A stretch of DNA of 64,000 bases from Desulfurobacterium indicum (lineage in GTDB: Bacteria > Aquificota > Aquificia > Desulfurobacteriales > Desulfurobacteriaceae): assembly GCF_001968985.1 (NCBI RefSeq), contig NZ_MOEN01000001.1, positions 1-64,000 of the forward strand. The letters are read 5' to 3'. Below are positions 2,293-35,249 of the stretch, in pieces; position 1 is the stretch's first letter; each line of letters opens with the position of its first letter. Under the pieces are notes generated by a model. The model had not been told where the DNA came from and ran no database searches. It worked only from the letters and a program-made list of their open reading frames with translations. Made by a program: the position numbers and the translations under genes.

Positions 2293-3498
2293 ATGGCGGT
2301 TACTATGATAGAAGAGAGAAAAGTGGTTCCCTATTCAGGGAACATGGCAGCAGCTGAAGCTTTAAGGCAGATAAACCCTGACGTTGTTGCTGCTTATCCT
2401 ATTACGCCACAAACAGAGATGATGCACTTTTTCGCCGATTTTGTGGCAAATGGTCTTGTTGATACTGAGTTTATTACGGTTGAAAGTGAACACAGTGCCC
2501 TTTCTGCGGTTGTTGGTGCTGCAGCGGCCGGTGCAAGAGCAATGACGGCGACAGCAGGTCCCGGTCTTGCTCTAATGTGGGAAATTTTAGGTGTTGCTTC
2601 AGGGATGAGACTTCCTGCAGTTATAGCTCTTGTTAACAGAGCTCTTTCATCTCCTATTAACATTCACGGTGACCACTCGGATATGATGGGTGCAAGAGAC
2701 CAGGGATGGATTATTCTTGTTTCCGAGAATGCCGAGGAGGAGTATGATAACCTTATTCAGGCTGTTAAGATTGCCGAAGATGAAAGGGTCAGGCTTCCGG
2801 TGATGGTTGGTATGGACGGTTTTATTATCTCTCACTCGATAGAGGGTGTATCTCTTCTCAAAGATGAGGAAGTGAGAGAATTTGTTGGGAAACAGAGAAT
2901 GTTTCATCCTCTTCTTGATGTTGAGCATCCGACAACTCACGGTGCCATCGCCATGTCCGATTCTTACATGGAGTTTAAGCGTCAACAGAGAGAAGCTATG
3001 ATGAATGCCTACAAGGTAATTAGAGAAGTCGGTGAAGAGTTTGCAGCGCTGAGAGGTAAGAAATACGAACATATCGAAGCGTATAAAACTGAGGATGCCG
3101 AATACATTCTTATTGTTATGGGTTCAGCAGCAGGAACCGCAAAATATGTTGTTGACAGGATGAGAGAGAGAGGTGAAAAGGTAGGAATAATAAAGATTAG
3201 AACGTTTAGGCCTTTTCCTTACTATGATCTTGCAGATGCGATTGTTGCTTCAAATGCTAAAGCTATCGGAGTGATGGATAGAGCTGAAACATTTGGCGGA
3301 TACAGCGGTCCTCTTTTCGAAGAGGTTTGCACGGCTCTTTATACAAGAAACAAGTTCTATCCTATTGCAGGTCTTATCTACGGACTGGGCGGAAGAGATT
3401 GCAATATTAACCATATAGAAGAAGCGTTCGATGTTGTCAAGAAAAAGGCAGCAGGAGAGGAAGTTCCGCCTGTAACCTATCTCAATTTGCAAGTATAA
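2293..3498 (+). CDS. porA: Pyruvate:ferredoxin oxidoreductase, alpha subunit
   Basis: This is the 401-residue alpha subunit. AYPITPQTEMMHFFADF near residue 36 is the conserved YPITP substrate-site motif, and ATAGPGLALMWE and INIHGDHSDMMGARDQGW are further family blocks. It forms the active site together with the beta subunit, which binds thiamine diphosphate. Length is normal for the four-subunit enzymes. Confidence 0.93.
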   Translation: MAVTMIEERKVVPYSGNMAAAEALRQINPDVVAAYPITPQTEMMHFFADFVANGLVDTEFITVESEHSALSAVVGAAAAGARAMTATAGPGLALMWEILGVASGMRLPAVIALVNRALSSPINIHGDHSDMMGARDQGWIILVSENAEEEYDNLIQAVKIAEDERVRLPVMVGMDGFIISHSIEGVSLLKDEEVREFVGKQRMFHPLLDVEHPTTHGAIAMSDSYMEFKRQQREAMMNAYKVIREVGEEFAALRGKKYEHIEAYKTEDAEYILIVMGSAAGTAKYVVDRMRERGEKVGIIKIRTFRPFPYYDLADAIVASNAKAIGVMDRAETFGGYSGPLFEEVCTALYTRNKFYPIAGLIYGLGGRDCNINHIEEAFDVVKKKAAGEEVPPVTYLNLQV

Positions 3499-3516
3499 TA
3501 ATTAATGGAGGAAATA

Positions 3517-4503
3517 ATGGCACAGGTATCAGATAAACCAAAGTTTGTTACTAAGGGAGAGATAAAGGTTCCCCCTATTAGAGATTTGACAGATTCAAGA
3601 GAAGGTATAGCTCCAGGTCACAGGCTCTGTACTGGTTGTGTTGCTGGAATAATTCTCAGGCAAATGTTCATGGCGGCAGAGGCAGCCGGCTATACTCTCG
3701 TGATAGCAAATGCAACCGGCTGTGTTGAGGTTTGTACTTCAATTTACCCTCACACTTCCTGGAAAGTGCCATGGATTCACAACGCCTTTGAAAATGCGGC
3801 TGCCACCATTTCAGGCGTTGAAGCTGCCTACAAAGCTCTTAAAAGAAAAGGAATGCTCCCTTCCGATAAAAAAGTAAAGTTTGTGGCTTTAGGTGGTGAT
3901 GGTGGAACCTATGATATTGGTTTTCAGTCTCTTTCAGGGGCACTGGAAAGGGGTCACGATTTTATCTATGTGTGTTACGATAACGAGGCTTATATGAATA
4001 CCGGTATTCAGCGTTCAAGCGCTACACCAAGGCATGCTGCAACGACAACTCAACCTGCCGGTAAAGTTATTCCTGGTAAACCACAGCCCAAAAAGTGGAT
4101 GCCAGAGATAGCAGCTGCTCATGGCATTCCATATGTTGCTCAGGCTGCACCTTCACATTTCAATGATTTTATGAGAAAATTCATTAAAGCTTTAAATACT
4201 AAAGGACCATCTTACTTGAACGTTTTCTGCACCTGTCCGAGAGGCTGGAGGGCAAAAGAAGAAGAGGGAATTCTAATTTCCAGGCTTGCTGTTGAAACCA
4301 ACTACTGGCCGTTGTTTGAAGTTGAAGACGGGAAGTGGAAGATAAACTACAAGCCGAAAGAGAGAAAACCGATAGAGGAGTTTCTCAAGAAGCAGGGAAG
4401 ATTTAAGCATATGTTTAAGCCTGGAAATGAATACCTCATAAAAGAGCTTCAAGAAGACGTTGATAAGCGGTGGGAGAGACTTCTTAAACTTGAGCAGTTA
4501 TAA
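3517..4503 (+). CDS. porB: Pyruvate:ferredoxin oxidoreductase, beta (TPP-binding) subunit
   Basis: The beta subunit (328 residues) binds thiamine diphosphate and a 4Fe-4S cluster. The GDGGTYDIGFQSLSGALERG block with a downstream YDNEAYMNTG is the TPP/Mg site. Cysteines in LCTGC (early), VEVC (middle) and FCTCPRGWR (late) fit the cluster ligands of PorB. I place the start at the ATG at 3517, with GGAGG at 3507-3511, because an upstream in-frame ATG at 3505 lies inside that ribosome site. Confidence 0.92.
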   Translation: MAQVSDKPKFVTKGEIKVPPIRDLTDSREGIAPGHRLCTGCVAGIILRQMFMAAEAAGYTLVIANATGCVEVCTSIYPHTSWKVPWIHNAFENAAATISGVEAAYKALKRKGMLPSDKKVKFVALGGDGGTYDIGFQSLSGALERGHDFIYVCYDNEAYMNTGIQRSSATPRHAATTTQPAGKVIPGKPQPKKWMPEIAAAHGIPYVAQAAPSHFNDFMRKFIKALNTKGPSYLNVFCTCPRGWRAKEEEGILISRLAVETNYWPLFEVEDGKWKINYKPKERKPIEEFLKKQGRFKHMFKPGNEYLIKELQEDVDKRWERLLKLEQL

Positions 4504-4514
4504 GGAGAGAGAAA

Positions 4515-4988
4515 GTGTTAAGCATTAGACCCGAAGAGGATAAAAAGTTACGAGAGGTTCTTACAGCCCTTTGCAGTGAAAGCAGAGCAAAGGTGGTATT
4601 TTTAATAGATAAAGCGGGTCAATTAATAAGCCGGAGTGATGCTCCGGCTTATACTTCTAATGATATAACTTTTGCATCACTTACCGCAGGTAACGTTGCG
4701 GCTTCTGAAGCTCTTTCAAAATTACTTGGCGATAAAACTTTAAATCATGCCTTTACTGAAACTGAGGACGAAGGTATCTATATGTCTCTTCTTGACAGGA
4801 AGTTGATTCTTGTGATAATTTTCGAGAAATTTGCGTCAAATCTTGGCATAATTCGTGTGAAACTTAAAAAGTATCGTCCCATTCTTGAGGAAATAATACG
4901 TAAGATAGAAAGGAAATCCGAGCAGGAACAGCAGATTGGAAAAGAGATTAATTTTGATGAGATAGATATAGATAATCTGTTTGAATAA
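4515..4988 (+). CDS. mglB: Roadblock/LC7 domain protein, MglB-like
   Basis: The 157-residue protein has a Roadblock/LC7 fold pattern: a helix at the start (KLREVLTALCSES), a strand VVFLIDKAGQLISRS, then a helix SLTAGNVAASEALSKLLG, and later strands around IYMSLLDRKLILVIIF. MglB proteins are GTPase-activating partners of MglA, which is encoded next. The start is GTG at 4515 behind AGGAGAG. The C-terminal 40 residues are charged and probably flexible. The pair suggests control of cell polarity; its target in this organism is not visible here. Confidence 0.85.
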   Translation: MLSIRPEEDKKLREVLTALCSESRAKVVFLIDKAGQLISRSDAPAYTSNDITFASLTAGNVAASEALSKLLGDKTLNHAFTETEDEGIYMSLLDRKLILVIIFEKFASNLGIIRVKLKKYRPILEEIIRKIERKSEQEQQIGKEINFDEIDIDNLFE

Positions 4989-5007
4989 AGGAAGGCGGAG
5001 TCATTAA

Positions 5008-5589
5008 ATGCCACTAATAAACTTTGCGACAAAAGAGATTAACTGTAAGATTGTTTATTATGGTCCTGGATTGAGCGGTAAGACTGCCAACATAAAGTGG
5101 ATATATGATCATATCAGACCGGAGAACAAGGGAGAACTTATTACACTTGCTACGGAAACAGAGCGAACGTTGTTTTTTGATTTTGTTCCGATAGAGGTAG
5201 CAACAGTTAAGGGTTTTAAGGTCAGATTTCATCTTTATACCACTCCCGGGCAGATTATCTACAAGATAAGTAGAAAACTAATTTTAAAGGGTGTTGACGG
5301 TATTGTTTTTGTTGCTGATTCTCAAGAAGAGAGACATGATGCCAATCTTGATACTCTTGATGATATGTTGAATAACATGAAAGAGCTCGGTATTAAGTTT
5401 GAAGATACTCCACTGGTTTTCCAGTATAATAAAAGGGATTTGCCTAATATTTTACCTGTTGAAGTTTTAAGAAAAGATCTCAATAAGTGGAATTATCCTG
5501 ATTTTGAAGCAATTGCCATTAGAGGGGTAGGTGTAATAGAAACATTTAAAGAAATAACGAAGTTAGTCGTTCAAAAATTGAAAAAATGA
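5008..5589 (+). CDS. mglA: MglA-type small Ras-like GTPase
   Basis: The 193-residue protein is a bacterial MglA GTPase. The P-loop GPGLSGKT is at residues 19-26, the switch II TTPGQ replaces the usual DxxG as in other MglA proteins, and NKRD provides guanine specificity near residue 143. In Myxococcus and Thermus, MglA with MglB sets cell poles for type IV pili and motility. Minor pilin genes elsewhere in this window give it a plausible target (inference). Its stop overlaps the bioB start (ATGA). Confidence 0.9.
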   Translation: MPLINFATKEINCKIVYYGPGLSGKTANIKWIYDHIRPENKGELITLATETERTLFFDFVPIEVATVKGFKVRFHLYTTPGQIIYKISRKLILKGVDGIVFVADSQEERHDANLDTLDDMLNNMKELGIKFEDTPLVFQYNKRDLPNILPVEVLRKDLNKWNYPDFEAIAIRGVGVIETFKEITKLVVQKLKK

Positions 5590-6515
5590 AGTTAGAAATT
5601 AACGATATTTTGACAACAAAACCTGAAGAGATTCTTTTTCTTTTTTCTAATGTCTTAAAATTCAAACTTTCCTTCTCAGGCCGTTTTATAGAGACATGTG
5701 CCATCTTAAATGCCAAAAGTGGAAGGTGCCCTTCTGACTGTAAGTTTTGCGCTCAGTCGGAAAAGAGCAAAGCGAACATAAAAGTATATCCTCTTCTATC
5801 TGAAGAAGAGCTCTATAATTCAGCCATTTCAATGTTTTCTAAAGGTGTAGATAGATTCAGTTTCGTGTGTAGCGGAATAAGGCCTACTGTGTCTGAAATC
5901 AAGAGAATTGGAAAAGTAGCGGAAAGGATAAAGGCTGATTATCCGAAAGCTAAACTTTGTGCCTCTCTGGGACAGCTTGATGGAGATTCTCTTTCTTATC
6001 TTAAGAAAAGTGGAATAGACAGATATCATCACAATCTGGAAACTTCAAAAGAGTTTTATCCTTATGTTTCGTCTGTTCAAAGGTGGGAGGACAGATACAG
6101 AACGATTGCAAGAGCCAAGGAATTGGGATTTTCTGTTTGCAGCGGCGGAATTTTTGGGCTTGGAGAATCAGTAGAAGATATCGTTTCTTTTTTAACGTCT
6201 TTAAAAGAGTTGGCTGTTGATTCCATACCATTAAATTTTCTTTATCCAATAAAGGGTACTAAATTTGAGTATAATAATTTCTTGACACCATTGAAAGTTT
6301 TAAGGATAATTTTTGCTGCAAGGGTGTTTTTTCCGGATACATTCATCCGTATCTGTGGCGGTCGTGAGTATAATTTAGAACAACTGCAACCTTTCGCAGT
6401 TGCAGTTGTAGACGGGCTTATGGTAGGTAATTACCTTACCACCAGGGGAAGAAGTTTAAAAGACGATATGGAACTTATCAATAACCTTGGGTTAAAGTGC
6501 AGCCTGAAGATTTAA
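5586..6515 (+). CDS. bioB: Biotin synthase
   Basis: This radical SAM enzyme inserts sulfur into dethiobiotin, the last step of biotin synthesis. The C-x3-C-x2-C cluster (CPSDCKFCAQS) lies near residues 48-58. The remaining [2Fe-2S] ligands are also present: Cys in FVCSGIRP, Cys in LCASLGQL, Cys in VCSGGIFGLGE and Arg in CGGREYN. At 309 residues it is slightly shorter than the E. coli enzyme, from a short C-terminus. It overlaps mglA by 4 bases; no other bio gene is in the window. Biotin would serve carboxylases of carbon fixation (inference). Confidence 0.95.
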   Translation: MKLEINDILTTKPEEILFLFSNVLKFKLSFSGRFIETCAILNAKSGRCPSDCKFCAQSEKSKANIKVYPLLSEEELYNSAISMFSKGVDRFSFVCSGIRPTVSEIKRIGKVAERIKADYPKAKLCASLGQLDGDSLSYLKKSGIDRYHHNLETSKEFYPYVSSVQRWEDRYRTIARAKELGFSVCSGGIFGLGESVEDIVSFLTSLKELAVDSIPLNFLYPIKGTKFEYNNFLTPLKVLRIIFAARVFFPDTFIRICGGREYNLEQLQPFAVAVVDGLMVGNYLTTRGRSLKDDMELINNLGLKCSLKI

Positions 6516-12773: not shown

Positions 12774-12849
12774 AAAACAAAATTTATTTTCAACAAAATA
12801 ATGAATATCAAGTGTAGCTTGCCTTTTCTCTAATTTACAATATAATTTA

Positions 12850-12855
12850 TATAAT
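12850..12855 (+). promoter_or_regulatory. -10 box (TATAAT) of the PilX-like gene
   Basis: Two TATAAT hexamers (12841-12846 and 12850-12855) lie in an AT-rich stretch about 40-55 bases before the start codon. No convincing -35 was found. They are consistent with independent transcription of the single gene that follows. Confidence 0.4.
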
Positions 12856-12895
12856 GATTATTTGTATTGTTTGTATTGTTTTGCAGGAGGAGGAG

Positions 12896-14509
12896 ATGGA
12901 AAGAAAAAGAAAAGGAGTGGTTTTAATTACACTTCTTGGCGTAATTACGGTTCTTTCTGTTGCAGGTGGAATCGCAGCTTACGTCATTACTAAAGAAACT
13001 AAGAGTACAAGAACGACAAAAGATGCACAGCAGGCATTACTTGCTGCTGAAGCAGGTGTTCAAAGGGCTATATCTCGTATTAAATGGGAAGGAAATTTCT
13101 CTGCCTTTTCTGGAAGTTTAGGTAAATCTGGTTATGATGTTGCGGTTGTTTATGATCAAACTTCAGGTTCAGGAAGAATAGTTTCGAAAGGTTCTTCAAA
13201 CAGTGCCAATAGGGCTGTTGTTGTAAACTTCTGGACATCTGGAACATTTTCTTCGTTTGCTGCCAAAGAAAATTTCACAATGGATTATCTTTCTATTGAA
13301 GAACCTTTCCCAGATGTTACAGCTTTTAGAACGGGAGGCCAGTTTAAAACTTCTCCCGGTAATAGGTTGGAATTTAATGGAACTGCTTACAATGTAACTT
13401 TTATCTCTAAGTCGCCTACGCTTGGGGAAAATGTTATTCTTAAACCTTTTACAGGTGGTGCTGCTATTCCGTTTATTCCTTCGGTTACAGATACAGTGTT
13501 TAATCCGGGAACCTGTGATTATATGGATGTGACTAGAGTGCAGGGAGATGTGGTTTATTTCTCAAATGGAACTTCTGTGACTCTTACAGATATAACTGGA
13601 GATGGGACGGTTGTTCTGTGCAATACCAACGGTGGTATAGAGTCTAACGGGATAAGTTATACAGGTGAACCTGTGGTGGTTTACGCTAAAGATGACATAG
13701 ATATTACAGGTAGCCGTGGTCATAGATTTAGGGGAGGTGAAACAGAGGTTACCTATGTTTCCCTCTATGGTGATATAAAGGTGGATGAACAGATACATCT
13801 TGGTTGTGGCTGTTGGAAGAGGAGTGGTAACAGGACAGCTGGATTGATAGCACTTAATGGTGATGTTGAGTTAAACGCTCCGATAAACATAAAAGGTAAG
13901 GGTTACGATTACAATGTTCTTATCTATGCGGGTGGGGATATTATTGGAAGTCCATCAGATTCTACTTTAAGGAGAGGAGGAGGGCATGGTGGTTATATGG
14001 GTAATGCTCTAATAAATGTGATGGAAAAGAACTGTGGTCGCTGGGGTTCCTTAAATGTAACGAATGGGAATATAATGATAGCTGCAAAAGGTGAGATAGA
14101 CCTTGGTGATTGGAATGTCCTTTCCCTTTCTCATAAAGGGGGGAGAGGTGGAAGTATATCTGAAAACATTAATCTTTTGTTATGGTCAAATGGCGATATG
14201 AATCTCGGTTCTCTCGATCTTGAGGTTTCTTCAAGAGGTGGACACGGAAGGCGTTGGCTTGCGGAGAACGGTAATCTTGTTACGCTTGGTATATTGACAG
14301 GTGGGAAGTTGAATATAGGGGATCTGATATTAAGTGGAGCTGTTACGGGTATTTCTGAGGAAGAGGTTGACAAGTGGATTGCTCTTCTTTCAAATGGAAC
14401 AGCTGCAACAGATGATCCGGAACTTTACCTTCTTGAGCAGTTTGTAGGCCAACTTCAGAATAATGTTGGAAGGTATGATCTGATTATAGGTAATTGGAAG
14501 TATTATTGA
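12896..14509 (+). CDS. Large PilX-like surface protein with beta-solenoid-like repeats
   Basis: I do not recognise a named family for the whole 537-residue protein. Residues 1-30 (basic RKRKG, then one hydrophobic helix) resemble PilX/GspK-type prepilins that lack Glu5. The AEAGVQRAISRI segment continues the pilin helix. From about 265 to 490 short strand repeats recur with GD/GN turns (SLYGDIKV, ALNGDVELN, YAGGDI, TNGNIMI, SNGDMNL, NGNLVTL), suggesting a beta-solenoid. Glycine/arginine loops (RGGGHGG, GGRGG, RGGHGRR) occur between them. The protein ends IIGNWKYY. AGGAGGAGG precedes the ATG at 12896. The pilus gene at 32363-33703 shares both ends. It is probably exported and attached to a type IV pilus or pseudopilus (inference). 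Confidence 0.7.
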   Translation: MERKRKGVVLITLLGVITVLSVAGGIAAYVITKETKSTRTTKDAQQALLAAEAGVQRAISRIKWEGNFSAFSGSLGKSGYDVAVVYDQTSGSGRIVSKGSSNSANRAVVVNFWTSGTFSSFAAKENFTMDYLSIEEPFPDVTAFRTGGQFKTSPGNRLEFNGTAYNVTFISKSPTLGENVILKPFTGGAAIPFIPSVTDTVFNPGTCDYMDVTRVQGDVVYFSNGTSVTLTDITGDGTVVLCNTNGGIESNGISYTGEPVVVYAKDDIDITGSRGHRFRGGETEVTYVSLYGDIKVDEQIHLGCGCWKRSGNRTAGLIALNGDVELNAPINIKGKGYDYNVLIYAGGDIIGSPSDSTLRRGGGHGGYMGNALINVMEKNCGRWGSLNVTNGNIMIAAKGEIDLGDWNVLSLSHKGGRGGSISENINLLLWSNGDMNLGSLDLEVSSRGGHGRRWLAENGNLVTLGILTGGKLNIGDLILSGAVTGISEEEVDKWIALLSNGTAATDDPELYLLEQFVGQLQNNVGRYDLIIGNWKYY

Positions 14510-14530: not shown

Positions 14531-14566
14531 AATGCGGCGACCTTCCGGTTGTCGCATTTTTATTTT
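14531..14566 (+). terminator. Rho-independent terminator after the PilX-like gene
   Basis: AATGCGGCGACC and GGTTGTCGCATT pair over 12 positions with two G-T pairs and a TTCC loop, and are followed by TTTTATTTTATT. Confidence 0.85.
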
Positions 14567-14622: not shown

Positions 14623-14651
14623 TTGACATAATATCAGAATTTTCTTATACT
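14623..14651 (+). promoter_or_regulatory. Near-consensus sigma-70 promoter of the hydrogenase operon
   Basis: TTGACA (14623-14628), a 17-base spacer and TATACT (14646-14651) lie about 35 bases before the first hydrogenase gene. This is the best housekeeping promoter match in the window and suggests strong, perhaps constitutive, expression. Confidence 0.75.
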
Positions 14652-14684
14652 AAATCTGTTCCAATTCCCCAACAGGAGGGTATG

Positions 14685-15773
14685 ATGAACTTTCAGCTTG
14701 AAAAGGCGAAAATCCTTCCGAAAGAAAATCTTTCACAATTTCTGGAAGGTGTTAGACAATTCGGAAGGTTGATTGCGCCTGTTAAAAAGAAGGAAAAGTA
14801 TATCTTCTCTGAGATTGATGATGTTTCAAAGGTGGAAACGGACTATGTCAGGACGATTCTGCCGCCGAAAAAATTTATTCTCGGTTACTTAAGAGAGAGG
14901 TTTGAGTATAGCCCGGAAAGGATGGAGTTTGTGGAAAATTTCAAACCTCAGCCTCAAGTGATTTTCGGAGTTCACTCTTGCGATCTTCACGGTATAGCCA
15001 TTCTGGATGCGGTTTATCTCAAAGGGGATAATCCTGATCCTCGTTATTTGGCAGCCAGAAAGGAGACTACACTGATAGGTATTTCCTGTGTTCCGGATGA
15101 CGATTGTTTTTGCATTTCTACGGGAACTGCTTTTCCTGACGGCACAAGCTGGGATCTGTTTTTCACGGATATTGGAGACAGTTATTTCGTTTCAATAGGA
15201 AGCGTTAAAGGTGATGAAATTATTCATTCTTTGGAGTCTATTTTCAGAGAAATTTCCAAGAAGGAGTTGTCTCTTTATAAGAGAGTTACGGCAGAGAAAA
15301 AGCATTTGTTTAAGGATAAAAATATTCCTGATCTTGAAAGGATTACTCAGGTTATTGAGCTTGAGTATGATTCTGAGATCTGGGAGGAAGAGGCAGAGAG
15401 GTGTTTTAGCTGCGGAACCTGTACCAATACGTGTCCTACTTGCTTTTGTTATACCAGTGTTGATATGCCTTCGATAGATGGGAAAGTTGTTACGAGAATA
15501 GAGTTTATAACATCCTGTCAATATCCTTACTATTCTCTTGTTGCGGGTGGACACAGATTTCATGAAAACATTAAAGAGCGCTTTAGAAACCGCTACTATC
15601 ACAAGTTTGTCGGTTATCCTTATCAGATAGAAAGGTTTGGATGTGTTGGTTGTGGTAGATGTCAGCATGAATGCCCGGCAGGTATAAGAATTGTTGATAC
15701 ACTTAAAAAATTGAGAGGAGCGGGAGATGAAGAAGAGCCTGGAAAAGTTACTAACGATATCCACAGTGCATGA
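14685..15773 (+). CDS. hydB: NAD(P)-linked [NiFe] hydrogenase, beta (iron-sulfur) subunit
   Basis: The 362-residue electron-transfer subunit resembles sulfhydrogenase beta and AsrA-type proteins. Two 4Fe-4S motifs are clear: CFSCGTCTNTCP (about residues 240-251) and CVGCGRCQHECP (about 320-331). FGVHSCDLHGIAILD and the Y-L-A-A-R region are family blocks. It carries electrons between the flavoprotein HydG and the hydrogenase module. AGGAGG at 14674-14679 favours the ATG at 14685; the ATG at 14682 is a close alternative. The coding end overlaps hydG by 47 bases. Confidence 0.9.
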   Translation: MNFQLEKAKILPKENLSQFLEGVRQFGRLIAPVKKKEKYIFSEIDDVSKVETDYVRTILPPKKFILGYLRERFEYSPERMEFVENFKPQPQVIFGVHSCDLHGIAILDAVYLKGDNPDPRYLAARKETTLIGISCVPDDDCFCISTGTAFPDGTSWDLFFTDIGDSYFVSIGSVKGDEIIHSLESIFREISKKELSLYKRVTAEKKHLFKDKNIPDLERITQVIELEYDSEIWEEEAERCFSCGTCTNTCPTCFCYTSVDMPSIDGKVVTRIEFITSCQYPYYSLVAGGHRFHENIKERFRNRYYHKFVGYPYQIERFGCVGCGRCQHECPAGIRIVDTLKKLRGAGDEEEPGKVTNDIHSA

Positions 15774-16605
15774 TCCTTTTAAACCTCAAAAGGTGAGGAT
15801 AACAGATATAGAGGAACTTGCACCTGATCATAAGAAGTTTTCCTTTGTCTTTCTGGAGGATGAACTTAACGAAAAATGGAGTCACAAGCCTGGGCAGTTT
15901 GTTATGTTGACTGTTCCTAAGGCTGGAGAAATTCCGATTTCAATATGTTCTTCTCCAACAAGAAAAGGAACAATTGAATTAACAGTCAGGAAAGTGGGAA
16001 GAAAAACGGAAGTTCTTCACAGTATGAAATGTGGAGATATTCTTGGTTTAAGAGGTCCTTATGGTAACTCTTTTCCTGTTGATTTGATGGAAGGCCACAA
16101 TGTGCTGATTATTGCAGGCGGCCTTGGGATGGCGCCTCTTCGTTCTCTTGTATGGTATGTACTGGATAAGAGGGAGAAGTATAAAGAGGTTTATCTCCTT
16201 TACGGAACAAGAAATTATGAAGCTGTTCTTTATAAGGATGAGCTCAGAAGGTTAAAAGAGAGAGATGATATTAGATGTCTCTATATCCTTGATAGAGTGG
16301 AAACAGAAGATGATAAAGCCTGGACGGAAAAAGAAGGACTTATTACATCTCTAATTCCTGAAGTTGATCTTGATCCTTCCGATACATATGTGGCTGTTTG
16401 TGGACCACCTGTGGCTTATAGATTTATCGGAGCTGAACTTATAAAGAATGGTTATCAGGAAAGTAAAGTTTTTGTTTCTCTTGAGAGAAAGATGGAATGT
16501 GGAGTGGGTAAGTGCGGCCATTGTCAGGTTGGTTACAAGTTTACATGTGTTGACGGTCCTATTTTCCCACTCTGGGATACGAAAAATCTACCAAAAATGA
16601 TTTAA
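15727..16605 (+). CDS. hydG: NAD(P)-linked [NiFe] hydrogenase, gamma (FAD/NAD(P)-binding) subunit
   Basis: The 292-residue flavoprotein of the diaphorase module resembles ferredoxin-NADP reductases. PISICSSP near residue 78 binds FAD, GGLGMAPLRSLV near 134 binds the nucleotide, and a C-terminal cysteine cluster (CGVGKCGHCQVG with a later Cys in FTCVDGP) holds a 2Fe-2S centre. It passes electrons to or from NAD(P)H. The ATG at 15727 lies inside the end of hydB; a GTG at 15766 would remove the long overlap but also the family-like N-terminus. Confidence 0.92.
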   Translation: MKKSLEKLLTISTVHDPFKPQKVRITDIEELAPDHKKFSFVFLEDELNEKWSHKPGQFVMLTVPKAGEIPISICSSPTRKGTIELTVRKVGRKTEVLHSMKCGDILGLRGPYGNSFPVDLMEGHNVLIIAGGLGMAPLRSLVWYVLDKREKYKEVYLLYGTRNYEAVLYKDELRRLKERDDIRCLYILDRVETEDDKAWTEKEGLITSLIPEVDLDPSDTYVAVCGPPVAYRFIGAELIKNGYQESKVFVSLERKMECGVGKCGHCQVGYKFTCVDGPIFPLWDTKNLPKMI

Positions 16606-16615
16606 GAGGTGCGGT

Positions 16616-17383
16616 ATGGCAAAGCCAAAAATTGGAATAATGTATCTTACAAGCTGTGCAGGATGTCAGTGTGAGATACTTAACTATGAAGAAGCGCTCT
16701 TAAAACTTCTTGATTTAACAGAGATTAAATATTTTCCAATAGGCAGCAGTGCCAACACTCTTGATGAGGAGCTTGATGTTCTTTTTGTTGAAGGCTCTGT
16801 TTCTACATCTCTTGATGAAGAAATGGTTAAAAAGGGAAGGGAAAAAGCCAAGGTTCTCGTTGCAATAGGAACCTGTGCTTGCTTTGGCGGTGTTCAGGCA
16901 AACAATAATGATGTTCCTGTTGATGAGCTTCTGGAAACGGTTTATGGGACTACAGATATGCCTTTTAAGATTACTCATGCAAGACCTGTTGAGGAGGTTG
17001 TAAAGGTTGATTATTCTCTTCCTGGATGCCCTGTTGATGGAAAACAGTTCGTCTATGCAACAGCTTTTCTTCTAAATGGTGTTAAACCGTTCTTTCCGAA
17101 AATGGCTGTTTGTTACGAGTGTAAGCTTTCAGAGACAGAATGTAGAACACTTCAGGGACTTTTCTGTCTTGGTCCTATTACTACAGCTGGTTGTGGTGCT
17201 CCATGTACGTCAAAGGGGCTTGGTTGTCAGGGATGTCGTGGTGATCATGATGCTCCGAACTATAAGGAGATGGTGGAAGTTCTCTCAGAGAGGGGACTTA
17301 AAGGTAAAGATATGATTAATTTCATGAAAGTTTTCCGCGGCAACTACCTGAAAGAAAAACTTAAAGATGCAGGGGTCGAATGA
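16616..17383 (+). CDS. hydD: NAD(P)-linked [NiFe] hydrogenase, delta (small) subunit
   Basis: The 255-residue small subunit carries the cluster next to the active site. SCAGCQCEIL near residue 13, ATGIGTC-like AIGTCACFGG near 81 and SLPGCPVDG near 139 are the conserved cysteine positions. Further cysteines (CYECKLSETEC, GCGAPC and GCQGCRG) are typical of the group 3 small subunit. There is no twin-arginine leader, so the enzyme is cytoplasmic. It overlaps hydA by 4 bases. Confidence 0.92.
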   Translation: MAKPKIGIMYLTSCAGCQCEILNYEEALLKLLDLTEIKYFPIGSSANTLDEELDVLFVEGSVSTSLDEEMVKKGREKAKVLVAIGTCACFGGVQANNNDVPVDELLETVYGTTDMPFKITHARPVEEVVKVDYSLPGCPVDGKQFVYATAFLLNGVKPFFPKMAVCYECKLSETECRTLQGLFCLGPITTAGCGAPCTSKGLGCQGCRGDHDAPNYKEMVEVLSERGLKGKDMINFMKVFRGNYLKEKLKDAGVE

Positions 17384-18687
17384 TGAAGAAAGAGATAAAG
17401 GTGGATCACTTAACGAGGGTTGAAGGTCATGGTGCCATAGAGATAATTTTTGAAGGGGATAAGGTAAAAGATGTTAAAGTAAGGATAACTGAAGGGCCGA
17501 GATTTTACGAATACACTGTAAGAGAAAGACTCTGGACAGACATTCCAAAAGTCGTTTCGAGAATATGCGGTATTTGTTATGTCTCTCACCGTATAGCTTC
17601 TGTAAGGGCTATTGAAGATGCGTTTGGTGTTAAGGTTCCAGAACCTATAGAACTTTTGAGGAAGCTTCTTATAGTCGGTGAATTTTTTGAGAGTCATTCA
17701 CTTCACGTTTATTTTCTGGCACTTCCAGACTACATGGGATATGATTCTGCCCTTGCTATGGCTAAAGAGTATCCTAACGTTGTTAAGCGTGCGTTTAAGA
17801 TGAAAAACCTGGGTAATACCATAATGAAGACAATCACGGGGAAACATTTCCACGGAGAAAACATTATTCCTGGAGGTTTCGCCACTTATCCTACGAAAGA
17901 GGAACTTCTTGCTTTAAAGGAGCAACTTGAAGAGATAATGGTAGATGTTGAAGATACGGTTAAACTTTTTGATTCTCTTGATTATCCTGAGCTGAATGAT
18001 CCGCCTATGTTTCAAATGGCAATATCAAAAGATAAGCTTGCATTCGTCGGTAATGAGATATATCTGTCTGATGGGACTGTGTTTACCAAAAACGAGTTTG
18101 AGATGTTTGTTATTGAAAGTTTTAACGGCTATTCTATGGCAAAGCAGTCAACAATAGAAGGGAAGCCGTTTTTAGTAGGTCCTCTTGCAAGAGTTAATCT
18201 TCATCTTGATTCTTTGAGACCTAAGACGAAGGAAATTATGAAAAATATGAGAATTAAGTTCCCTTCAAACAACAGTCTACATCAAAATGTTGCAAGGACA
18301 ATAGAACTTATGGAACTTACACAGGAAGGTATTGAGCTTATAGATGCTATACTTGCTGATTATCCTTCGATTTCAAGAGTAGAAATTAAGCCGAAAGCCG
18401 GAACAGGTTTTGGACTTAAGGAAGCACCGAGAGGAACTCTCTATCATAAGTATTCCTTTGATGAAAACGGCAGATGCATCAACGCAAATATAATTACACC
18501 GACAGCTCAGCTACAGGCGAACATGGAGAAGGATTTAAAATCGCTTGCTGAAAGGCTTTCTTCCGAGGATGAGGCTACTGTCAAAAAGTATGCCGAGATG
18601 ATGATAAGGGCTTATGACCCATGTATTTCCTGTTCAGTTCATATGTTTGGTGCCAGGTTTGAGACCTTGAAAGTTATTCGTCTGTAA
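17380..18687 (+). CDS. hydA: NAD(P)-linked [NiFe] hydrogenase, alpha (large, catalytic) subunit
   Basis: The 435-residue catalytic subunit holds the NiFe centre. The L1 motif RICGICYVSHR (about residues 61-71) and L2 motif DPCISCSVH (about 412-420) provide four cysteines. Fifteen residues follow the L2 histidine, so C-terminal processing by a maturation protease is expected; none is encoded in the window. The beta-gamma-delta-alpha order is that of the Pyrococcus sulfhydrogenase (group 3b), reversible with NAD(P)H and able to reduce sulfur in some species. The direction used here is inferred to be NAD(P)H supply from H2. Confidence 0.93.
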   Translation: MMKKEIKVDHLTRVEGHGAIEIIFEGDKVKDVKVRITEGPRFYEYTVRERLWTDIPKVVSRICGICYVSHRIASVRAIEDAFGVKVPEPIELLRKLLIVGEFFESHSLHVYFLALPDYMGYDSALAMAKEYPNVVKRAFKMKNLGNTIMKTITGKHFHGENIIPGGFATYPTKEELLALKEQLEEIMVDVEDTVKLFDSLDYPELNDPPMFQMAISKDKLAFVGNEIYLSDGTVFTKNEFEMFVIESFNGYSMAKQSTIEGKPFLVGPLARVNLHLDSLRPKTKEIMKNMRIKFPSNNSLHQNVARTIELMELTQEGIELIDAILADYPSISRVEIKPKAGTGFGLKEAPRGTLYHKYSFDENGRCINANIITPTAQLQANMEKDLKSLAERLSSEDEATVKKYAEMMIRAYDPCISCSVHMFGARFETLKVIRL

Positions 18688-32362: not shown

Positions 32363-33703
32363 TTAATAAACTTTCCACTCTTTTATAATTATTTTTCCAC
32401 CGGTGCCCGCATTGTCAATTTGCTTTTTGAGTTCACAGTAAAAATTCTTATAGAATAAAGGTATTCCAAGAGAGGTTCCGTTTAGGCAGTAGTTCTTAAT
32501 CTCTTCATATGTAAGACCGCTGGGATGTGTGTTTTTCTTAAAATCCAAATCTTTCATGTGAACATCTCCATCGGCAACTATAAATGCAAAGTTTCTTTCA
32601 TATCCATCAGGACAGGAGCCAGTTAAATGAATGCTTTTTGAATCATTTATATTTACACCTTTATCTGCCCATATTACAAAGTTTGCTCCTTGTTTTGTGG
32701 AACCTGTATCCCATAGAAAAGAGGAATCTACATTAATAGCACCTGGTGTTATAAAAAAAATGGATGATGTTTTTGTTGCATCTTGATTTCCTGTGACAGT
32801 TATAACGCCTTGGGGAAACGTATTTGCGTCTATTTCATTTCCTGCATAAACGAGTAAATTATAGCCACCTTTTGTTTTTCCAGTAAATTTTATTTTATCA
32901 TCAAATATTACTTTGTCTTTTGCAGCTATAGTAACGTTCCAGTCTGTTTTCATTCCTTTGTCTCCCAATTCATCTTTTACATAAATATCGTTTTCTGCCA
33001 GCAGTTTAACATTGTCTACATCAATGGATGTATCTATAAATATGTTTTTCCCACAAATGGTTTTCCCTTCTATATTTGAAAGTGATGATAAATATACATC
33101 TGATGAGGGATTTCCTATATCACAAGTTTCATTATCAAGTGGGGCGAAAATAGTTGAAGTATCCATATCTGCGGCTTTAGGAGGTTCAAGGCTACTGAAT
33201 TTGTGGACAGTAAAGTTTGCATTTGTAAGGAGATTTTCTGCTGTACTACTGATATTAACCACACCCATTTCTGCTTCTGTCCATGGCGTGCTATCCATGC
33301 CAGTTATATCAAATGTTCCGTTTATAGAGAATGGAAAGAACGGACCTCCTTCAATTTTAATGATTACTTTTACTTCTCTTGATATATCTTTAATTTTTCC
33401 CACTGAATCTACTTTTATTGTGCCATCCGGATTTTTGACAACTGTTACAATGTATGTTCCGTTTGCAAATGTTGCTGTAGCGGTTTGAGGACTTGTTGTA
33501 GGTTTTAAATTTCCACTTTTAATATCGGCAAGAACTCTTTCTACTCCGCTTTCAGCAATTTTAAGTGCTTCAACTGAATATTTTGTGCTACCGGTTCCTT
33601 GTGATTCTTTCTGAATCATATAGGTTGTTATGCCGCCCAACATCGTTAAAAGGGCAATTACACCAAGAGTAACTTCTAAAACTAATGCTTTTCTTTTTTT
33701 CAT
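32363..33703 (-). CDS. PilX-like pilus-associated protein with long secreted domain
   Basis: The 446-residue protein starts MKKRKALVLEVTLGVIALL, a basic tip plus one hydrophobic helix as in PilX/GspK-type prepilins, followed by an AESGVERVLADI helix. The rest (about 80-446) is predicted extracytoplasmic and strand-rich, with blocks such as LLVYAGNEI and VADGDVHMKD, and ends IIIKEWKVY. It is the last gene of a four-gene minor-pilin unit, in the position PilX would occupy, but it is much longer than ordinary PilX. Its ends match the protein at 12896-14509. The C-terminal domain has no family I can name; adhesion or pilus-tip function is inferred. AAGGGGGA precedes the ATG. Confidence 0.75.
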   Translation of the reverse strand: MKKRKALVLEVTLGVIALLTMLGGITTYMIQKESQGTGSTKYSVEALKIAESGVERVLADIKSGNLKPTTSPQTATATFANGTYIVTVVKNPDGTIKVDSVGKIKDISREVKVIIKIEGGPFFPFSINGTFDITGMDSTPWTEAEMGVVNISSTAENLLTNANFTVHKFSSLEPPKAADMDTSTIFAPLDNETCDIGNPSSDVYLSSLSNIEGKTICGKNIFIDTSIDVDNVKLLAENDIYVKDELGDKGMKTDWNVTIAAKDKVIFDDKIKFTGKTKGGYNLLVYAGNEIDANTFPQGVITVTGNQDATKTSSIFFITPGAINVDSSFLWDTGSTKQGANFVIWADKGVNINDSKSIHLTGSCPDGYERNFAFIVADGDVHMKDLDFKKNTHPSGLTYEEIKNYCLNGTSLGIPLFYKNFYCELKKQIDNAGTGGKIIIKEWKVY

Positions 33704-33722
33704 AAAATCCCCCTTTAAAGGT

Positions 33723-34289
33723 TTACCAGTTTCTGCAAATTACTTTATCACCTATAGAAAAAGTTTCATTTCTCACTTTTCCAGTTATTGTGTAGGAAAC
33801 AGTATGATTGTTGGAGTCAACCGAGGCATTGAATGTATTTATCGTTACGATGTTTCCATCAAACATTGAAGCAGCAGTTCCGCTCCCGATAGCTCCTCGA
33901 TAGACCTTTCTAATAATATTATTGTTATTCAGATAATATTCAATCTTATATTTGCATGTTAAACTTGCGTTTGTCCATGTCTGGTTATCACATCCTGTTT
34001 TAGTGTAGTCAATAAAATATATCGTTAGAGGATCGGCCAATGTTCCAGTTCCGCTTACGGGAATTAGGCCAGCAGAAGCTACACCTCCGTATCCTGCTTT
34101 TCTCAGGTCGGAATCTATTATTTCTATGACGTTAAATACAGATATGTTGCCTCGAGAAGTTTTCATAGTTGTGTCCATCTGCCTGTATCCAAATGAAAAG
34201 AAGATGACAGCAGCGGCCATAATGATTAGGGCTATTATTGTTCCTACTATGAGTTCTATGAGTGTAAAACCGGCTCTGTATTCTTTCAT
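33723..34289 (-). CDS. pilW: PilW-like minor prepilin
   Basis: The 188-residue protein has a class III prepilin signal: MKEYRAG, then FTLIELIVGTIIALIIMAAAVIFF, with cleavage expected after Gly and Glu at mature position 5. The downstream region fits PilW-like minor pilins in length and in the SDLRKAGYGG motif near residue 65. I start at 34289 because the longer frame puts 39 residues before the signal. The ATG overlaps the stop of the preceding pilV-like gene by one base. Confidence 0.82.
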   Translation of the reverse strand: MKEYRAGFTLIELIVGTIIALIIMAAAVIFFSFGYRQMDTTMKTSRGNISVFNVIEIIDSDLRKAGYGGVASAGLIPVSGTGTLADPLTIYFIDYTKTGCDNQTWTNASLTCKYKIEYYLNNNNIIRKVYRGAIGSGTAASMFDGNIVTINTFNASVDSNNHTVSYTITGKVRNETFSIGDKVICRNW

Positions 34290-34681
34290 TACCAATTCCC
34301 TTTGATATATTCTAGTGTAACGTTTCCATGGTAGTTCTGATATGAAAAACTGCTGATTACCTTTATCTTTTTGGTATTTGGATCTACCCCATTTTCTACT
34401 ATCCATTCGATATTGGCATCACCGCTAAATCCATCGCAGCATGTATCAGGATCGTTGTTGCAAGTTTCATCAATTCCCACAGTTAAGCAGGAATCAGTGT
34501 AGTTAAGGCTTACAAGATGTTCAAGAACTTTGTTGGCTTTATAGAGAGCTGCTTCTCTTTCTTGATTTATTTTTGAATATTTAATATTGAATATGATAAG
34601 CATACCTATTCCAAGCATGGCGATAGTGAATATTGCCATTGCTATTAAAGTTTCAATAAGTGTAAAACCTTCCTTTTTCAA
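34289..34681 (-). CDS. pilV: PilV-like minor prepilin
   Basis: The 130-residue protein begins MKKEG followed by FTLIETLIAMAIFTIAMLGIGML, a canonical type IV prepilin N-terminus with Glu5. REAALYKANKVLEHLVSL is the extended helix. Four cysteines in the middle (SCLTVGIDETC and DTCC) could form disulfides. It lies between the fimT-like and pilW-like genes, 1-2 bases apart. The name rests on order and size rather than on specific residues. Confidence 0.82.
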   Translation of the reverse strand: MKKEGFTLIETLIAMAIFTIAMLGIGMLIIFNIKYSKINQEREAALYKANKVLEHLVSLNYTDSCLTVGIDETCNNDPDTCCDGFSGDANIEWIVENGVDPNTKKIKVISSFSYQNYHGNVTLEYIKGNW

Positions 34682-34682
34682 T

Positions 34683-35126
34683 TTATAACCTCTGTAAATA
34701 GATTCTTCCGCTTATTGCGCTGATCGTTATTTTGTATGAAATTCCATATCCGGACACTGTTATATTTCCATTTTGAACAGGTAATTTGTTCCGTTTAAAA
34801 TTTATGTAGTTTGTTCCTCCTGAGAAACTTGGAGTTAAAGTGATAGGAGAATCTATTGAAATGGTTTTTATTGGAGTTGAGTTTGTTGCTGGTGCATAAA
34901 TTTCATAATTGTCTGAATTTATTACTACTTTGCTGCTTCCTTTTTCCATGGCAAGACTTTGGCTCCAGATAAGGTCAGATGTTAGTTCTTCTGCTGCTTG
35001 CCTCACTTTTGAATAGTGTATCCAGGTAATAATCTTTGGGATAGCTATGATAGAAAGAATTCCAGCTATAACTATGCTTACAATAAGTTCTGTTAAAGTA
35101 AAGCCTTTTCTTTTCAGTATTTTCAT
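34683..35126 (-). CDS. fimT: FimT/GspH-like minor prepilin
   Basis: The 147-residue protein starts MKILKRKG then FTLTELIVSIVIAGILSIIAIP, a class III prepilin signal. The HYSKVRQAAEELTSDLIWSQSLAMEKGS helix is typical of GspH/FimT pseudopilins, which prime pilus assembly. I place the start at 35126 because a longer frame adds 28 residues before the signal. It is the first gene of the pilus unit. Confidence 0.85.
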   Translation of the reverse strand: MKILKRKGFTLTELIVSIVIAGILSIIAIPKIITWIHYSKVRQAAEELTSDLIWSQSLAMEKGSSKVVINSDNYEIYAPATNSTPIKTISIDSPITLTPSFSGGTNYINFKRNKLPVQNGNITVSGYGISYKITISAISGRIYLQRL

Positions 35127-35174
35127 AGTTGATTTCCCAAAAGTAAAATAGCCATTCAATCTACATATATATAT

Positions 35175-35203
35175 AATATATAGGAATTTAGCCTTTAAAA
35201 CAA
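35175..35203 (-). promoter_or_regulatory. Possible promoter of the minor-pilin unit
   Basis: On the minus strand TTGTTT (35198-35203) and TATATT (35175-35180) are 17 bases apart, about 50 bases before the first pilin ATG. The region contains an alternating AT run, so chance matches are likely. Confidence 0.35.
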
Positions 35204-35249
35204 CTATCAACTTACTAAGGTTAAAATCTAAAAAAATGTTTTAAATTTC

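Follow-up and report, generated by a model that had tools for sequence, protein, structure and literature searches.

A probable minor pilin of a large PilX family with a predicted ComZ-like β-solenoid and arginine-rich loops, encoded apart from the minor pilin operon

The window, i.e., the whole stretch of 64,000 nucleotides analyzed here, contains a complete open reading frame (ORF) for a large PilX-like protein, hereafter the orphan, which is flanked by endonuclease V on one side and by sulfhydrogenase genes on the other and does not follow a FimT-PilV-PilW series. The following features were recognized at the gene:

12819–12846, plus strand: promoter-like TTGCCT-16-TATAAT, with 10 of 12 positions matched in a consensus scan (a consensus match only)
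12885–12890, plus strand: ribosome-binding site AGGAGG, 5 nt ahead of the ATG, read from the sequence
12896–14509, plus strand: coding sequence of 537 aa, a complete open ORF; orphan large PilX, putative ComZ-like modular minor pilin
14531–14558, plus strand: intrinsic-terminator-like hairpin followed by a T tract, from a 12-bp stem scan (a consensus match only)

The promoter-like site and the terminator-like hairpin, both consensus matches, are in line with the earlier note, in which the gene was described as standing alone between its own promoter and terminator. An alternative ATG at 12854 would add 14 residues; the start at 12896 was preferred because the AGGAGG and a prepilin-type leader are found there. 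The neighboring sulfhydrogenase-like genes form a four-gene operon (β, γ, δ, α; 14682–18687), each falling under its NCBIfam cut-off, with a promoter-like TTGACA-17-TATACT at 14623–14651.

The prepilin-like N-terminus proposed for the protein was borne out. A short, basic leader ending in Gly (MERKRKG, followed by VVLITLLGVITVLSVAGG) precedes a hydrophobic helix, as expected for a putative class III signal, and residues 6–55 matched PilX_N (PF14341) with an E-value of 1.8e-4, scoring 21.9 bits in the protein scan, just below the family cut-off of 25.5 bits, and 26.5 bits, above it, in the genome scan. Mature position 5 is Thr (VVLIT) and not Glu. No sequence family beyond PilX_N covered the orphan in Pfam, NCBIfam or, with the family profile, PDB sequences, and because PilX_N was its only match the protein falls outside any named sequence family. 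The NCBIfam scan gave just a chance FliL match, a phmmer search with the orphan and family-profile searches of PDB sequences yielded nothing useful, and a DUF7305 candidate was dropped for want of a Pfam match. No PHROG family or plasmid matched the orphan, nor did any viral structure in BFVD match its model at E ≤ 0.001, and a reading as a phage tail fiber or viral β-helix was rejected on the PHROG and BFVD results.

Whole-genome searches placed the orphan in a "large PilX" family of 444–841 aa; proteins in the PilX position are therefore not always small, as had been supposed. The other members with a readable context occupied the PilX position of FimT-PilV-PilW-PilX minor pilin operons. Nor is the orphan an isolated oddity: a paralog of 446 aa was found in such an operon 18 kb away in the window:

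34683–35123, minus strand: FimT/GspH-like minor pilin, Glu5 present (PF12019 GspH above cut-off)
34289–34681, minus strand: PilV-like minor pilin, Glu5 present (TIGR02523 PilV, E 1.8e-6, under its cut-off)
33723–34319, minus strand: PilW-like minor pilin, Glu5 present (N_methyl Pfam, TIGR02532)
32363–33703, minus strand: 446-aa large PilX paralog, last gene of the minor pilin operon (homology search; its model matches ComZ)

Large PilX genes followed FimT, PilV and PilW, with one to three copies per operon, in six other searched genomes of the taxonomic family and in Thermodesulfatator. The order FimT-like, PilV-like, PilW-like, large PilX was constant and recurred in Thermodesulfatator autotrophicus, and no PilY1-like ORF was present in the retrieved flanks of these operons. 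Glu5 was found in no member of the large PilX family, and was present in the accompanying FimT, PilV and PilW proteins. Copies per genome ranged from one to four, with divergent inserts: the operon paralogs numbered three in tandem in each of two genomes (G001 and G003) and one each in G005 and G007, with versions of 680 aa, at least 412 aa (cut off) and 841 aa in G010 and G004. The 680-aa (G010, L020:7161–9203) and 841-aa (G004, L064:6125–8650) proteins also occupied the PilX position, and the former contained 16 GD/GN turns versus 5.2 expected (reached in 0 of 2000 shuffles), which indicates that solenoid length varies widely within the family.

An ortholog with 89% identity was found at the same site, between endonuclease V and the sulfhydrogenase genes, in G001, a genome of the same genus. 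The orphan was present in two of the four searched genomes of the genus and is thus dispensable to it, since at the syntenic site of the other two the hydrogenase genes come directly after endonuclease V. A long stem carried the orphan pair in the tree, where it grouped with the leading copies of the tandem arrays (support 88/86, not starred), for which an old duplication followed by relocation would be the simplest reading. A single-sequence search of genome contigs retrieved no relative of the orphan; an alignment-based search of the contigs retrieved three loci. One of these (L046, JAMOVR010000329.1) belongs to a metagenome-assembled genome labelled Candidatus Heimdallarchaeota; its contig carries bacterial-type genes, among them PilV-PilW-large PilX and, after these, genes resembling RluD and TrmH, and is probably mis-binned.

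The orphan was modelled with AF2 from an alignment of 12 rows, with a pLDDT of 75 and a pTM of 0.73; pLDDT fell below 50 in the N-terminal 39 residues and in most of the arginine/glycine/histidine loops described below. The model was divided as follows:

12896–13090, plus strand: residues 1–65, predicted class III leader (MERKRKG before VVLIT) and pilin α-helix (sequence, PilX_N match and model helices, placed by DSSP at residues 10–38 and 42–65)
13106–13240, plus strand: residues 71–115, four predicted pilin-type strands (AF2 DSSP)
13256–14350, plus strand: residues 121–485, predicted β-solenoid insert (repeated long-short-short strands in AF2 DSSP; Foldseek match to ComZ)
14357–14506, plus strand: residues 488–537, two predicted helices and the final strand (528–536), with the family motif WKYY at the end (AF2 DSSP)

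In the family alignment, W534 was invariant and Y537 nearly so. The model of the 446-aa paralog was better (pLDDT 84, pTM 0.75) and showed the same plan, with clear triplets of long, short and short strands. Repeated GD/GN turns had been described for the second half of the protein; while the turns themselves were recovered (seven in the insert, against 3.05 ± 1.63 in composition shuffles), the predicted solenoid begins near residue 121. This enrichment, reached in 46 of 2000 shuffles, is modest on its own, and the two nearest paralogs showed 8 and 10 turns (reached in 7 and in none of 2000 shuffles, respectively).

A Foldseek search against 350,542 PDB chains, with significance set at E ≤ 0.001, returned the three ComZ chains of 6qvi as the sole significant matches to the orphan model (E 3e-7 to 9e-6, prob 1.00), aligned across most of its length. 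The earlier note would have taken the return of no close named family as support; instead, this single match was obtained, and ComZ was again the sole significant PDB match when the paralog model was used (E 1.6e-6 to 7.4e-5). Below significance, the paralog model next matched ice-binding solenoids and type II secretion system (T2SS) pseudopilins, the same fold relatives that were reported for ComZ itself (PMC6561018). The similarity of the solenoid to ice-binding β-solenoids (FfIBP and relatives) was weak and not significant (E 0.07 or worse); those proteins have no pilin domain, and there is no basis for ice binding by the orphan.

ComZ of Thermus thermophilus is a competence pilin that binds DNA and is probably located at the pilus tip, and it consists of a pilin domain resembling GspK, into which approximately 380 residues of solenoid are inserted between the penultimate and last strands (PMC6561018). 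Like the orphan, it is a large minor pilin without Glu5 (Gly5 in ComZ, Thr in the orphan), and in both AF2 models the order of elements likewise places the solenoid ahead of the last pilin strand, that is, between the penultimate and last strands. The ComZ gene adjoins small minor pilin genes, as do those of the paralogs, whereas the orphan gene stands alone. However, identity to ComZ was 9–12%, and ComZ was absent from the family-profile search of PDB sequences at E-values up to 5, so that the confident match to a characterized protein, which the earlier note had named as a refutation, was one of structure and not of sequence. Since rigid superposition gave TM-scores of 0.18–0.23 and rmsd values of 14–22 Å, short of the TM > 0.5 taken for a globally superposable fold, the match is local and topological. 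On the models, then, the likeness to ComZ is one of architecture, in plan and local structure, and with TM-scores of about 0.2 and no sequence-profile match common descent is not established.

A further feature that sets the orphan apart from ComZ is the series of arginine/glycine/histidine loops in its solenoid. The loops are delimited as gaps between model strands:

13706–13741, plus strand: loop 271–282, TGSRGHRFRGGE
13802–13831, plus strand: loop 303–312, GCGCWKRSGN
13949–14005, plus strand: loop 352–370, SPSDSTLRRGGGHGGYMGN, low pLDDT
14027–14059, plus strand: loop 378–388, KNCGRWGSLNV, low pLDDT
14135–14161, plus strand: loop 414–422, KGGRGGSIS, low pLDDT
14222–14275, plus strand: loop 443–460, EVSSRGGHGRRWLAENGN, low pLDDT

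These loops, to which the earlier note had drawn attention, stood up to shuffling: seven RGG-like motifs were counted in residues 241–480 versus 1.2 expected, a number reached in none of 5000 shuffles. Over its full length the insert is acidic (net charge −17), and its basic part consists of the long loops only. Of the 12 solenoid arginines, 11 fell within the seven inter-strand loops of greatest length (88 of 238 residues), and the net charge was +8 in these loops and −12 in the rest (Fisher p ~1e-4). Because the loop mask was set with the sequence already in view and the circular-shift control gave 7/238, we regard the pattern as suggestive. Judging by strand order, five of the basic loops connect one coil's last strand to the long strand that opens the next coil, and could therefore line up along one edge of the solenoid, in a model in which several of them have low confidence.

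The loops were present in the ortholog pair and missing from every paralog. Between the two orthologs, they were approximately 96% identical, compared to 74.5% for the pilin strands, and dN/dS was 0.14 overall and 0.088 over residues 241–480; the orphan and its ortholog are under purifying selection. The position outside the pilin operon, the absence from two relatives and the long stem in the tree might point to a functionless, decaying gene copy whose loops are of low complexity; this is the least credible of the readings considered, as the ORF is intact in two species and the pattern of selection largely refutes a pseudogene. RGG-box RNA-binding proteins characteristically have a disordered tail in the cytoplasm where RGG repeats are clustered; this class was rejected for the orphan in view of its export signal and the spread of the motifs over the solenoid loops.

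Canonical PilX works together with PilY1. In the same genome, a second minor pilin cluster on another contig (G000:C2, L024:6083–11698) is the PilY1-type counterpart of the window operon and encodes PilY1 (1138 aa) and, after it, FimT-, PilV- and PilW-like pilins together with a PilX-like pilin of 136 aa, which, unlike the orphan, has no solenoid. The window operon lacks PilY1, and no PilY1 is encoded beside the orphan. The N-terminus of the orphan is a borderline PilX_N match, and with PilX/PilK core minor pilins it shares the absence of Glu5 and, through its family, the last place after FimT-PilV-PilW. The modelled order in PilY1-type pili is FimU, PilW, PilV, PilX and PilY1 at the tip, with PilX and PilY1 joined by strand complementation (PMC13190605), and a subunit without Glu5 caps minor pilin tip complexes (PMC10191384). 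Also encoded in the genome are PilB, which scored above cut-off, and two ATPases of the PilT/PilU type.

Taken together, the orphan is probably a modular minor pilin of the PilX/GspK type that caps a type IVa pilus, with the solenoid as a binding head. After export and processing by prepilin peptidase, it would take the very tip of the pilus, above FimT-PilV-PilW-type minor pilins, the place held by the separate PilY1 protein in PilY1-based pili. The solenoid would be held outward and contact something in the surroundings, and retraction by PilT-type motors would pull back the bound ligand. The proposed place and job resemble those of the PilY1/PilC tip adhesins, whose large, variable heads sit at the end of the pilus; PilY1, however, has a β-propeller and is not a pilin, whereas in the orphan pilin and head are one protein. 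A head built into PilX would be expected in a PilY1-less cluster if it replaces PilY1. In PilB and PilC of Streptococcus sanguinis, likewise predicted to be at the tip, the pilin carries a grafted ligand-binding module, but the modules are of the vWA or lectin type and end-attached, in contrast to a solenoid inserted in the sheet (PMC8179133). As to the ligand, the solenoid loops hold nearly all of its arginines, which makes a polyanion the most likely candidate; that they bind extracellular DNA, acidic polysaccharide or mineral is our tentative guess. Of the previous proposal of a pilus adhesin, a PilX-like, solenoid-bearing and probably pilus-borne protein, which may act as adhesin or receptor through its basic loops, was retained; its being undescribed in kind was not, as ComZ is known.

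The alternative that survives best is that the protein tips the pilus as a surface adhesin for minerals or extracellular polysaccharide and serves in attachment, with the paralogs providing pili with different tip heads. Modular pilins generally are ligand-binding heads grafted on a pilin (PMC8179133), and several tip complexes have been proposed to serve differing adhesion demands in Myxococcus (PMC13190605), which would suit the one to four divergent copies per genome. An attached lifestyle has also been suggested for Thermovibrio ammonificans, presumed to be of the same family (PMC5441870). The gene content of the genome would fit a Desulfurobacterium-like thermophile, whose habitat is likewise presumed. 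Scans of Pfam, NCBIfam and PHROG, however, detected no carbohydrate- or mineral-binding signature in the orphan, and we consider this function possible, with the balance somewhat against it.

We find it unlikely that the orphan is the ComZ-equivalent DNA receptor of a competence pilus, whose arginine loops would hold dsDNA for retraction to pass it on to ComEA/ComEC-type uptake. An architecture like that of DNA-binding ComZ, the arginine-rich loops, and the ComEC-type Competence domain, DprA and PilT-type ATPases encoded in the genome are consistent with such a role. Nevertheless, Competence and DprA domains were also found in most control genomes, including Escherichia coli, and so do not indicate competence, while no clear ComEA candidate was found in the genome, where the best HHH_3 match was the GspK-like ORF of the T2SS. 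Furthermore, the paralogs have no arginine loops, and the DNA-binding lysines of ComZ lie between its domains and not in solenoid loops (PMC6561018). Given the ComEA, ComEC and DprA results, competence was not accepted as an established role.

A T2SS pseudopilin, as opposed to a type IV pilus subunit, is a good deal less probable still. A GspE-like ATPase is indeed encoded in a T2SS-type cluster of the genome, Foldseek detected a weak resemblance of the pilin domain to minor pseudopilins, and GspK likewise combines a capping role with an inserted domain in its pilin sheet. That insert, however, is α-helical and lies between strands 3 and 4, and is not a solenoid before the last strand (PMC6561018); moreover, relatives of the orphan sit by FimT/PilV/PilW-type genes and not by gsp genes. 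T2SS membership was rejected because a separate GspK-like ORF is already present within the T2SS cluster.

Returning to the tip-capping modular pilin, a more far-reaching and rather doubtful proposal is that a pilus lineage of these thermophiles dispensed with PilY1 at the tip by building a ComZ-like head into PilX and diversified this head through duplication (one to three tandem copies plus the relocated orphan), an arginine edge along successive coils of the orphan providing a distinct polyanion surface. The modular design of tip pilins was known already; what is new here is the ComZ plan in a different sequence family, in PilX position and in multiple copies, together with an orphan whose solenoid bears arginine loops. 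ComZ has hitherto been described as an unusual pilin, and its architecture in multi-copy PilX-position pilins of other thermophiles suggests that solenoid-headed tips occur more widely as an alternative to PilY1-capped pili. The arginine-loop orphan, in turn, offers a specific, testable idea of how a solenoid head grips its ligand.

Comparison of the window operon (32363–35210) with loci L016, L017, L018, L019, L020 and L047 showed that the C-termini of each minor pilin class are alike across most genera, with GNW in PilV-like, CRNW in PilW-like and WKxY or similar in large PilX proteins; judged from the sequences, these shared ends may mark contacts at the pilus tip. Locus L018, from G005, additionally contains a gyrase A-like ORF (2541–6314) of 1257 aa, where relatives have 807–812 aa; its N-terminal part contains a possible intein junction (GECFVKGTKV).
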